Of a stretch of DNA of 64,000 nt, positions 18,108 to 62,669 are shown piece by piece. Below the pieces are notes generated by a model, which had not been told where the DNA came from, did no database searches, and saw only the letters and a list, made by a program, of their open reading frames with translations. Origin of the DNA: Phorcus lineatus (taxonomy: Eukaryota > Mollusca > Gastropoda > Trochida > Trochidae). The stretch is taken from positions 41,898,630-41,962,629 of the forward strand of contig OV121087.1 in assembly GCA_921293015.1 (NCBI GenBank), written 5' to 3'. Position numbers and translations under genes: made by a program. Numbering within the stretch: the first letter of the stretch is position 1; each line of letters begins with the position of its first letter.

Positions 18108-18439
18108 GACCTTACAAAAGTGAGTGAGTGAATTGGGGTTTAACGCCGCTTTCAAGATTATTTCACTTATATCGCGGCTGCTAGTATTATTGCAGGGAGA
18201 AAGCCCGCAACACCATTGTGGCTATGCACTGCGGGGAAACCTGCGAGCATCGGCTGTAACTAGCGAACCATGGGCGCTGAAATTCAGTGTAGCATTGCAC
18301 CCCAACCTGACTGCGTGTAGAACAGTTATCTACTGCAGACAAAGTTGCCGAGCCCCTGGCGGGATTCAAACCACAGACCTCCTGATCTGAAGCCGAACGC
18401 GCTAACCACTGCGCTATCCCGCCCCCGACCTTACAAGAG
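18108..18439 (-). mobile_element. Full-length tRNA-derived SINE with target-site duplications
   Basis: The element body is 18121-18426 on the minus strand. Its head reads GGCGGGATAGCGCAGTGGTT, then AGCGCG (A-box region of a tRNA), CTTCAGATCAGGAGG, and GGTTTGAATCCCGCC (B box and acceptor stem), so RNA polymerase III could start here. The anticodon arm compares best with tRNA-Trp. The body of about 230 bp ends with TTAAACCCCAATTCACTCAC, a simple CACT-type tail instead of poly(A). The element is flanked by GACCTTACAAAAG (18108-18120) and GACCTTACAAGAG (18427-18439), a 13-bp target-site duplication with one mismatch. That shows insertion by target-primed reverse transcription using a LINE machinery in trans. 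Open frames on both strands across it are by-products. Confidence 0.92.
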
Positions 18440-47642: not shown

Positions 47643-48114
47643 AAGAGCCACTTCGTGAGTTGGTGCAGCCATACCTGCCAAACTTAATCAATGGTGTCTT
47701 TTGATCGCGAAGTATCGACTGTTATCAAAAAGACACATTTTAAAGCTTATAGCTCTTTTACAGTGACAATATGAAGGTAGAACTTCGCAATTATGATCGA
47801 AAACCGGACAGTGACGCTCGTCAAATAGTCAAACGTAATTTTGGGGACTTATCTAAAACAGCCAGGAGGGCAGTTATGAGTTGATAGTGTTTGTTAGGTC
47901 ATATAAATAGTATCCATGTATATTGGACGTGATATTTACACATCTGTGCATTTATTTAGACTGTTTTTAGATGTTCATGGAAAACCAGTATTTGTCATAT
48001 ATATGTCTTTTGGACATGAACAGTTAAGATGTTTTGATTTTATATCACTGCATATGACATTTAGATTCGTATCAAAGGTACATAATATCTTATGAAAATC
48101 ACGGAGTGGCTCTG
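47643..48114 (+). mobile_element. MITE family A, intact copy (472 bp)
   Basis: The ends are inverted: AGAGCCACTTCGTGAG on the left and, reverse-complemented, AGAGCCACTCCGTGAT on the right. TTAA precedes the left end (47640-47643) and GTAA follows the right end (48114-48117), suggesting a TTAA (or TTA/TAA) target duplication with one change. The interior contains AAAACCGGACAGTGACGC and ACAGCCAGGAGGGCAGTTAT and has no open frame. A second copy, inverted, spans 60424-61766. A TTAA target fits piggyBac-like or related elements; the superfamily is inference. Confidence 0.88.
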
Positions 48115-48249
48115 TAATTGGCTATATGCTTTGTTGGGTTCATTAGGTTCAAGAAAATCAATAGAGATCATTGGATGTGTCCATTTGCTTCTGTTACTTT
48201 TAATAAGGCTCAATTCCTCAAGCACGTTCCCCTTTGTTTACATCAGGTC

Positions 48250-59830: not shown

Positions 59831-60423
59831 ATGCATTATTGGTATAGGTCCCCGAAACTAAACTACTTGCTATCAACCCATTTCTTTTTTTTATGATTTC
59901 TTGAATTTTCAAAAGCAAATGTTCATTACAAACGTCATCAGACTCCCCTATACGAAGGTCACCCATAATGAATACAAGTCTGCATAATATGAAAATATTT
60001 AAGAAGATGTGGAAGTGTCCTGAGTGTGGATTAAGTCATTGATGGTGGCTTCTTTTCTTATTTACTGATAGTGTGTTACGGTGGTGGATTATCTTATTTT
60101 GATTAGTGGTAAACCTGAATCATAATTGCATGTGGATGGAATGTCATGATTATATTCCCTTTTCCAAGTTAAGGGCGATGTGTTCCTCTATATCAGATAT
60201 CAATGCCCTCCCAGTACATCAATTGAAAAGTATGCTGTACCAGATTTGCACGTGTATGATGACCATGGCCTTTTATTTCTATAACAGTTCTAAAGTGGAA
60301 TAAATTTTTCATTTAGAATTCAAAGTCGAAATATGAACGTTTTCTCTAGATGATGCGAGCAATGTGCAATAGTTGAATGCAACGACTGTTGCTTGAGATT
60401 TTCATTGTTTTTAACGTGCGTTA
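59831..60423. other. AT-rich DNA, nothing recognised
   Basis: A 65-codon plus frame (60106-60303) has no recognisable motif. No repeat or RNA signal was seen before the MITE. Confidence 0.4.
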
Positions 60424-60475
60424 AAGAGCCATTCAGTGATTTTCATAACATATTATTTACCTTTGACATGAACCT

Positions 60476-60633
60476 TATAGACAATAACTAACGAGTGACG
60501 GGGAATGATAGATTATCTTTCCCGAGTTATATTAATTTCGTAATTCTCGAGCCTTGGCGAGAGAATTACACAATTAATATAACGAGGGAAAGATAATCTG
60601 TCATTTCCCGTCACGAGTTGGTTATTGTTTATA
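60476..60633. repeat. Near-perfect 158-bp palindrome
   Basis: The left arm (from TATAGACAATAAC) and right arm (to GTTATTGTTTATA) are about 78 bp each and pair almost completely, with only around ten mismatches and essentially no spacer: the centre is GAGCC-TT-GGCGAG. Each arm contains AGATTATCTTTCCC, TTATATTAATT and GTAATTCTC. The mismatches include a GAG/CTC swap in the CGAGTGACGGG segment. Such a structure can extrude as a cruciform and is hard to clone or assemble. It may be a foldback transposon by itself or the left end of the adjoining segment. Confidence 0.92.
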
Positions 60634-61355
60634 TTACCTATATGTTTCTTAAAAGATTAAAACGCGAATATGATAGAAATAATCGTTCCTCTATAAAGAT
60701 TCAGGGTTGCGAATTTCCAAATTCATACGCGTGTGCTATGGCGTTACTTGACACTTACCTACGCACGGCTTAATATTGTGTAATTTGTGAAAAAGTTTTA
60801 AAAGAACTTTGTAGTTGTTGAAAGTTTATTTCTTTTTCATAACCGTCATTCAAACTAATTACATTTAACAGTTTTGTGTTAATTTGAAGAGGTCAGCAAC
60901 GCCCTATAGTAATACTACAAGATGGCTGAACTTGTGACGTAACTGATAGCAGTGTGACGTCATAACCGCTCGTGTCTACGACGTCATTACGATAGAACGG
61001 AACCAGGCGCTTCTTCGCGACTGTTAGCTTTAACGTGATAAAGAACTAATTCAATAATCGCTAATTTCTATGCTGTTGTGCAATGTGGCAGGCTTATTTC
61101 ACGTTGTTTGTTGCGGCACATCTGAGAAATGACGACTGGCAACTACATGGAATAAATAAACATTGTTAAAATTCAGTCTAAGATGAAACAAATTACCAGT
61201 CGGGACAAGTTTGAAAGATGAATGAAATAGTCCCGGCACTGCGATCTTTTTCATTGGTTCACAACAACCAATCAAATGCCAATAAAATGTGTAACTCCCG
61301 TGTGACTTACAGGAAAAATATTACCCTGTGTCCATCTTCCCATATGGGTAATATA
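60630..61355. mobile_element. Non-autonomous element with promoter-like motifs
   Basis: The left end TATATTACCTATATG (60630-60644) and right end CATATGGGTAATATA (61341-61355) are inverted repeats with one mismatch. The interior is GC-richer than the flanks and non-coding. It contains CAAGATGGC (60918, YY1-like), TGACGTAA (60935), TGACGTCA (60955) and GACGTCATT (60980; three CRE/ATF-like sites within about 50 bases), an inverted pair of CCAAT boxes (ATTGG 61253, CCAAT 61268) and another CCAAT at 61279. GGGAC and GTCCC also form an inverted pair near 61202-61235. It sits inside MITE A together with the palindrome. Whether the two inserted as one element is unresolved. Confidence 0.65.
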
Positions 61356-61770
61356 ATGTCATATGCAGTGATATAAAATCAAAACATATTAACTTTTTAT
61401 GTCCAAAAGAAACATATATGACAAATATTGATTTTCCCATGAAAATCTAAAAACAGTCTTAGAAATGCACAGTGGTGTAGTTATTACGTCCAATATAAAC
61501 GGATACTAGTTATGTAACCTAACAAACACTATCAACTCATAACTGCCCTCCTGGCTGTTTTACATAAGTCTCCAAAATTACGTTTGAGTATTTGATGTGC
61601 GCCACTGTCCGCTTTTCGATCATAATTGCGACGTTCTACTTTCATATTGTCACTGTAAAAAGAAAAAATAATGTGTCTTTTTGGTAAAAGTCGATACTTT
61701 GCGATCAAACGACACCAATGATTAAGTTTGGGATATATGACTCCAACAACTCACGAAGTGGCTCTTTTAA

Positions 61771-62669
61771 CAATATCTCAGTCATTCAACTATTAACTGT
61801 AGGCAGCTCAAGTCAACATAACGTTCAAATGCGCTCGTAAAATTCAGAAATCTAGAGGTTTACACTTTTCACAACCATTCGAAAAAGTCTGCCTGCATTC
61901 AACTTCATGTACTTGAATTGAATGCCATACCAAACACTCTAAGAATGTTTGAAGATCCCAATATTGTGCACTAATTACTCTCCAGCCGATAGTTTAATCA
62001 ATTTCAATTTTGTGTAAGGGACAATAAGAAATCTATTTTATATGAAACCAACGCTTATTTAAAAACGAATATTTGTTTTTTTATCAATCACGGGGTCGCT
62101 AAGATCTGTTTAGTTTTAGGTTTCTATTGTCGTTGTTGTCTAGTAGTGTATTTTCAGAATAACATTTGGTTTCACGACGACGACTTAATTACGGGTTATC
62201 AATATTTCTACGTGGCATTGCATGTCGACATTATTACATGGATTTATCAATGGGTGACCTTCTCTTTCCTTAATTTAGTATAGAAATTTTAACTCATGAG
62301 TTGTTTTGAACAAAGTCATCTTAACAGTTCAATTGTTTTCATTCTTTAAGTTTATACAAAAGTAAGTTTTCTTTTACACGTTTACACTTGCCATTTAAAT
62401 TGTATATGCTCAATGCACCAAATTGCTCTGAACGAAACGAAATTTAAACAAAGCTAAATACATGATTGGACCCGAATTGCTAATTACTATTAAGCCACTA
62501 AATTTTACAGTATAGAACTAGTACAATGTATTCTATACTGACTTACTGACAGTTCAATATCATGCTAAAGAATATTATTTGTAGAGCTCTTTAGTTTGTT
62601 TGTTTGTCAAGTACTATCCAAGTTTGTGAATTTGAAGTAAACTGTTTAACAAACAACCGTCTATCATTT
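61771..62669. other. AT-rich DNA, nothing recognised
   Basis: No open frame above 60 codons and no repeat or RNA signal were seen. Confidence 0.4.

Follow-up and report, generated by a model that had tools for sequence, protein, structure and literature searches.

An 878-bp transposon of Phorcus lineatus with an about 150-nt 3' hairpin, probably a Helitron2-like rolling-circle element

Within the 64,000-nucleotide stretch of the Phorcus lineatus genome analyzed here (the window), a MITE is interrupted by about 0.88 kb of sequence that combines a long palindrome with a segment bounded by a second inverted repeat, raising the question of whether two elements landed side by side or a single element carries a palindrome at one end. 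The original prediction took the MITE at 47643-48114 as the pre-insertion sequence, an assignment borne out by the uninterrupted site there, where the copy lies in the opposite orientation, and by stretches of the MITE in three further loci (L036, L057, and L061). The insert could be delimited directly, as had been proposed, with its bounds corrected from 60476-61355 to 60477-61354 (878 bp). The 158-bp palindrome is real, but because its arms (60476-60553 and 60556-60633; 78 nt, 2 nt apart) are 85% complementary, its description as near-perfect was slightly strong. The second inverted repeat does start where the palindrome ends, matching positions 60629-60644 with 61341-61356 (16 nt, 94%).

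The interrupted MITE has imperfect inverted ends of its own (60423-60442 and 61748-61767, 80%). Both window copies (47643-48114 and 60424-61766) end near AGAGCCA...TGGCTCT, beside TTAA-like flanks, which suggests that the host MITE belongs to a TTAA-target family. Elsewhere in the window, a minus-strand tRNA-like match at 18357-18423 (RF00005, 31.9 bits) overlaps a repeat at 18133-18423 that is also present in L085 (80% over 256 bp). ARAGORN called no tRNA in the window, and the repeat looks like a tRNA-derived SINE.

To judge between one element and two, the original prediction had proposed asking whether genomic copies of the palindrome and of the body always occur together. The palindrome-only search scored the best 40 of 839 candidates, and the body-only search the best 40 of 841, with 30 of the scored loci examined in each case. 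At the same junction, the body was present in all 30 palindrome-selected loci (L041 having body positions 1-417 only), and the palindrome was present in all 30 body-selected loci (L057 having a partial palindrome). These counts cover the best-scoring copies, and solo parts are possible among the roughly 800 unscored candidates. The 80 loci represent 49 distinct copies, 46 of which have both ends readable and three of which (L020, L041, and L057) were left out, one end being unreadable; with scoring confined to the top 40 candidates of each search, the copies form a high-identity, non-random sample.

This association supports the single-element alternative that had been offered, a foldback at one end: the palindrome and the adjoining segment are one element. 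The nest of two elements is rejected by the same co-occurrence in the best-scoring loci. That scenario would place an independent palindromic element at the TATA border of a TIR element, and the palindrome and the 726-bp part do each have inverted ends starting TATA, but the shared junction in both sets of 30 loci, the T^RT flanks at the outer ends of the combined pair, and the repetition of the layout with other sequence in a second family make this reading extremely improbable. The single element does not have the proposed architecture of a giant foldback plus a conventional inverted repeat. Its inverted repeat is of the asymmetric kind, with the inner copy followed directly by the palindrome, which forms a hairpin at the 3' terminus; this is the layout given for Helitron2 in the available text of PMC3627910.

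On the minus strand, the element (Table 1) reads 5'-ATATTACCCATATGGG...body...CATATAGGTAATATA-153-nt hairpin-3', with GTCTAT as its last bases. It starts with ATATTACCCATATGGGAAGATGGACACAGGGTAATAT, continues through a body of ~700 bp to the inner repeat, and closes with a hairpin whose first letters are AACAATAACCAAC and whose last letters are GTTATTGTCTAT. Of the two asymmetric terminal inverted repeats (ATIRs), the 5'-ATIR begins at base 1 of the element, and the 3'-ATIR lies directly upstream of the 3' hairpin in this family (family 1) and in family 2 alike, at a distance from the 3' end of 153 bp in family 1 and about 150 bp in family 2. A 9-bp complement of the 5'-ATIR is present as a possible partner in a 5' hairpin, although 42 of 200 shuffles fold as well (z -0.90). 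No complete stop-to-stop frame of 150 codons is listed in the window, and the element is therefore taken as non-coding.

Table 1. Positions in the window of the element, its parts, and the host MITE.
Feature	Position	Strand	Basis
Host MITE, left part	60424..60476	+	Inverted-repeat search, empty sites
Host MITE, right part	61355..61766	+	Inverted-repeat search, empty sites
Host MITE, uninterrupted copy (empty site for the insertion)	47643..48114	-	Insertion point lies within 47944-48117
Whole element, 878 bp, non-coding	60477..61354	-	46 distinct copies with both ends readable, window-copy length, empty sites
3'-terminal hairpin H1, 153 nt	60477..60629	-	Fold z -13.1, conservation, pair counts
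3'-ATIR, inner inverted-repeat copy, directly before hairpin	60630..60644	-	Inverted-repeat search
5'-ATIR, outer inverted-repeat copy, at 5' end	61341..61354	-	Inverted-repeat search; first 40 bp among most conserved
Possible 5'-ATIR partner in 9-bp 5' hairpin, GGGTAATAT on minus strand	61318..61326	-	Sequence; fold z -0.90, unexceptional
Hairpin tip GCCAAGGC, common to both families	60551..60558	-	Comparison of the two hairpins
TC.TC internal loop 1, 5' side (partner 60493-60494)	60615..60616	-	Unpaired in both hairpin families
TC.TC internal loop 2, 5' side (partner 60524-60525)	60584..60585	-	Unpaired in both hairpin families
TC.TC internal loop 3, 5' side (partner 60549-60550)	60559..60560	-	Unpaired in both hairpin families

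The flanks of the 46 copies define the insertion site. The base before ATATTACCC is T in 42 copies and A in 4; the first base after GTCTAT is A in 37 or G in 9, and so R in 46 of 46, and the second is T in 45 and A in 1. Left and right flanks of these copies show no likeness beyond chance at any length tried between 1 and 10 bases, the observed match being reached in 94 to 868 of 1000 shuffles. A match spanning the site was present in the sequence examined for 7 of the 46 copies, cleanly for L001, L002, and L036, as one weak match for L003, and with gaps for L019, L048, and L062. In the three clean cases, where the original prediction would look for a target duplication, the empty site has the length of the joined flanks and no duplication is detectable, a 1-bp T being indistinguishable. 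L036 is another insertion in the MITE, and L002 lies in a tandem repeat with many uninterrupted units, mostly ...ACT|GTCTGT..., indicating that the G after the element belongs to the target and not to the element. The joined flanks of the window copy also match the empty-site length, with an A where the homologues have T at that position. Insertion is at T^RT without duplication, or with an indistinguishable 1-bp duplication of T. A TA or TATA target duplication, plausible at the window copy, is ruled out by the 46 copies and the empty sites, and the border TATA that had been proposed as the landing site is mostly element sequence.

These flanks also bear on whether the insert might be a cut-and-paste TIR transposon with a hairpin close to one of its ends, either Tc1/mariner-like with a TA duplication or a MITE. 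Its TA-rich borders, inverted repeats, and small non-coding size would suit such an origin, which is nonetheless quite improbable: no inverted-repeat relationship links ATATTACCC and GTCTAT at the outer ends, and the right flank is R-T rather than TA, with G in 9 of the 46 copies; in the L002 empty sites, this G is part of the target. The two marks of a Tc1/mariner-type MITE, matching outer TIRs and a TA duplication, were not found.

Sequence divergence is distributed unevenly along the element. Pairwise comparison of 29 body-selected copies gives mean differences of 0.013 for the hairpin and 0.010 for the first 40 bp, as opposed to 0.049 for everything before the hairpin. Nearest neighbors are 99.7% identical at the median and at least 99% identical in 35 of 46 copies, and the window copy has five relatives at 99.2-99.5%. 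Family 1 probably moved recently, judging from this nearest-neighbor identity, to which segmental duplicates could contribute some of the near-identical pairs. Variants of the 5' end following GGGA occur at six places in the genome.

A second family repeats the layout with different sequence. At 85 occurrences of the 5' end TATATTACCCATATGGG, the next base is not A, and in 75 of these it is C. The family-2 copy in L085, about 1.44 kb in length, has the same 5' repeat as family 1, a different body, and the inner repeat CATATGGGTAATA. The family-2 hairpin measures 148 nt and ends in TTATTCTCTAA; its tip is shared with family 1 and its stem is different, and in L087 it folds more strongly than H1 (-61.5 kcal/mol, z -18.6). 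Of 398 candidates for this hairpin, the best 40 were scored. For 17 of them, the exact 18-base 5' end lies no more than 10 kb upstream and on the same strand, at a distance of 1268-1290 bp in 15 cases; the exact end was absent upstream of the other 23, and, as a control, none of the 40 had the 5' end in the wrong order or on the wrong strand. Two copies (C13:7175306-7171137 and C41:1157743-1160416) have end-to-hairpin spacings of 4.0 and 2.5 kb, as opposed to about 1.28 kb, and are either longer relatives or copies with insertions. A 3.5-kb pair at C16, considered as a longer element, turned out to consist of two elements in succession, the first of family 2 and the second a 5'-truncated copy of family 1. 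The last bases of family 2 (L085-L090), CTAA, conform to the CTRR terminus of canonical Helitrons, whereas those of family 1 are CTAT.

The hairpin is a stable and conserved structure. As single-stranded DNA, H1 (folded as 60470-60645) has an energy of -48.3 kcal/mol, compared with -12.5 +/- 2.7 for 200 shuffles, none of which folded as well (z -13.1), and standard pairs occupy 2831 of 2851 hairpin pair cells across the 46 copies. When 10 family-1 and 4 family-2 hairpins, hand-picked and comprising 12 distinct rows, are aligned, 96.0% of 720 cells are paired. Of the 62 pairs, both bases changed in 18, a single side varies in 3, and 14 depart by unpaired cells only, whereas sliding the partner by 1-3 columns leaves 38-51% of cells paired and 2-5 double-changed pairs. 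The number of double-changed pairs was reached by 0 of 500 shuffles, and that of further pair types, one of five pair-count measures, by 27 of 500. RNAalifold, unaided, returned 58 pairs, 20 of them with double changes. Common to both families are the tip, the outer foot AATAACCAA / GTTATT, and three symmetric TC.TC internal loops (columns 14-15/136-137, 45-46/105-106, and 70-71/80-81), with changes in the loops confined to single copies.

Matched changes on both sides of a stem would likewise result from arm-to-arm copying (template switching) in place of selection on a working hairpin, and because the double changes nearly all separate family 1 from family 2, and so lie on one branch, the two processes are not fully separable. 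The three TC.TC mismatches, kept unpaired in both families, argue against copying, which should have erased them, and the hairpin, together with the 5' end, is the slowest-changing part of the element; we consider copying unlikely. Another reading has the hairpin acting as RNA. A long stem is in principle a good substrate for a Dicer-type enzyme, and the hairpin might work as a small-RNA source or a structured transcript, with transposition needing only a short piece of it. This too is improbable, and more so than copying: no Rfam family matches the hairpin (in 60000-62400, a search up to E = 1 gave one match, located outside the element, and nothing there reaches threshold), and the hairpin sits flush with the 3' terminus after the ATIR, the position of a transposition signal.

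Some copies are joined to one another or to parts of themselves. In L084, GTCTAT runs directly into the ATATTACCC that opens a second copy, head-to-tail, and this exact junction occurs at 3 places in the genome. In L083 (C12:21336300-21337400), the 3' end of an element is followed, within bases 229-998, by about 14 head-to-tail copies of a 54-bp unit that is the outer hairpin arm, and all 7 occurrences of the exact junction pattern are at this locus. The head-to-tail joins and the array fit rolling-circle elements, and the joins could also be second insertions at the same T^RT. The arm array suggests a route from a transposon end to a small satellite array. Two regular series were noted as well. 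On C5, four 3' ends lie 3397 bp apart, and the one place examined (L081) holds one element; we read the series as a probable larger tandem duplication. On C1, four inner-repeat/hairpin junctions on one strand (31451781, 31456862, 31461965, and 31467321) are about 5.1-5.4 kb apart and are perhaps a tandem array of a larger unit.

The element is probably a non-autonomous rolling-circle transposon, Helitron2-like and dependent for its mobilization on a Rep-helicase supplied in trans from another genomic locus, with its Helitron2-like membership assigned by anatomy because no RepHel-encoding partner is linked to it. Comparisons with published elements follow the available portions of the cited papers. 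In Helitron2 (Bao and Jurka 2013, PMC3627910), the terminal inverted repeats are asymmetric and the inner one lies directly before the 3' hairpin; here, likewise, the 5'-ATIR is at the very 5' end and the 3'-ATIR directly precedes the 3' hairpin. Two non-autonomous Chlamydomonas Helitron2 families are short (657 and 673 bp), with very rare target duplications (PMC3627910), and the present element is also short, with no detectable duplication. It differs from the Helitron2 group in the distance of the 3'-ATIR from the 3' end (153 bp, as opposed to about 20-30 there) and in its target (T^RT, as opposed to between TTTT and T/C there; PMC3627910), as well as in its hairpin of about 150 nt, its weak 5' hairpin (z -0.90), and the lack of a linked RepHel partner.

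With HINE and DINE-1 (Thomas et al. 2014, PMC4067079) and the oyster Cg_HINE (PMC7492417), the element shares subterminal inverted repeats, a 3' palindrome, T adjoining the ends, no duplication, a non-coding body, and many copies. In contrast, the palindrome of mite HINEs is 5-10 bp and their 3' subTIR is 38-60 bp from the end (PMC4067079), compared with about 150 nt and 153 bp here, and in Cg_HINE both palindrome and subTIR fall in a 60-bp right part (PMC7492417). The central repeat array of HINE/DINE-1 is also lacking, and Helentrons and HINEs, as published, insert in TT, whereas here insertion is at T^RT, with R after the element in all 46 copies. Shared with Helraiser, a canonical Helitron1 (PMC4778049), are a 3' hairpin that would act as terminator, a kept tip with a free stem, and head-to-tail joins. 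Unlike Helitron1, the element has neither a 5'-TC nor an A^T target but ATATTACC...GTCTAT at T^RT, and family 1 ends in CTAT and not CTRR. The hairpin of canonical Helitrons is short (PMC5148889), and those of the published relatives compared here span tens of bases, as opposed to about 150 nt here. Given that the element agrees in layout, in the T adjoining its ends, and in lacking a duplication, but departs in hairpin size, in the 153-bp distance, and in T^RT, we regard it as functioning in the manner of Helitron2 elements without assigning it to the Helentrons or HINEs. What is new relative to known Helitron2-like elements is the about 150-nt hairpin; no title or abstract opening reported a 3' hairpin of at least 100 nt in this group, within literature coverage that lies mostly outside the subscription journals.

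The genome contains 53 matches to PF14214 (Helitron_like_N), 20 of them on contig C25. Many lie in long open frames, several of about 2,450-2,660 codons, and these are probably intact rolling-circle transposase genes, one of which may be the source of the Rep-helicase. No RepHel gene was found between family-1 or family-2 ends when the 53 matches were compared with the listed ends: the shortest distance from a Rep match is 33 kb to the listed family-2 5' ends and hairpins and 181 kb to the listed family-1 sites (100 of 223, 100 of 206, and, for a third pattern, 90 of 90 being listed). One 4-kb stretch near a Rep match (L082) held no open frame of 80 codons and no related end.

For an element of this anatomy, Rep would nick the 5' end (T^ATATTACCC), and one strand would be peeled off. 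Once the 3' end became single-stranded, the ~150-nt hairpin would halt the helicase and position the second nick after GTCTAT. The two asymmetric repeats would pair in the displaced strand and draw the 5' end up to the hairpin foot, allowing the ends to be joined into a circle that would insert at another T^RT. In the available account of Helraiser, an active bat Helitron, the hairpin serves as terminator: activity fell to the level of a hairpin deletion when either the whole hairpin or its loop was replaced, and ~90% of activity was retained when the stem was swapped and the loop kept (PMC4778049). By comparison, the fixed tip and the free but paired stem of the Phorcus element appear to match the Helraiser pattern.

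Tentatively, and with low confidence, we suggest that in this rolling-circle branch what was a small terminator hairpin at the 3' end may have become a structured DNA module of ~150 nt, with a fixed tip, three TC.TC loops in constant positions, and covarying stems, that does more than stop the helicase. By analogy with the hairpin-primed replication of some single-stranded DNA viruses, it might allow fold-back priming of the second strand from the 3' end at the stem foot, beside the paired ATIRs, or it might offer Rep a landing place with multiple sites.

The single-element reading explains palindromes that would otherwise pass for misassemblies or for foldback elements in their own right. To our knowledge, the way in which the 3' end is marked in Helitron2-like elements has hardly been put to the test. 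With their oversized, covarying hairpin, the two recently active families constitute a natural mutational series, one that points to the parts that matter (the foot, the tip, and the TC.TC loops), as opposed to the part that is free (the letters of the stem).
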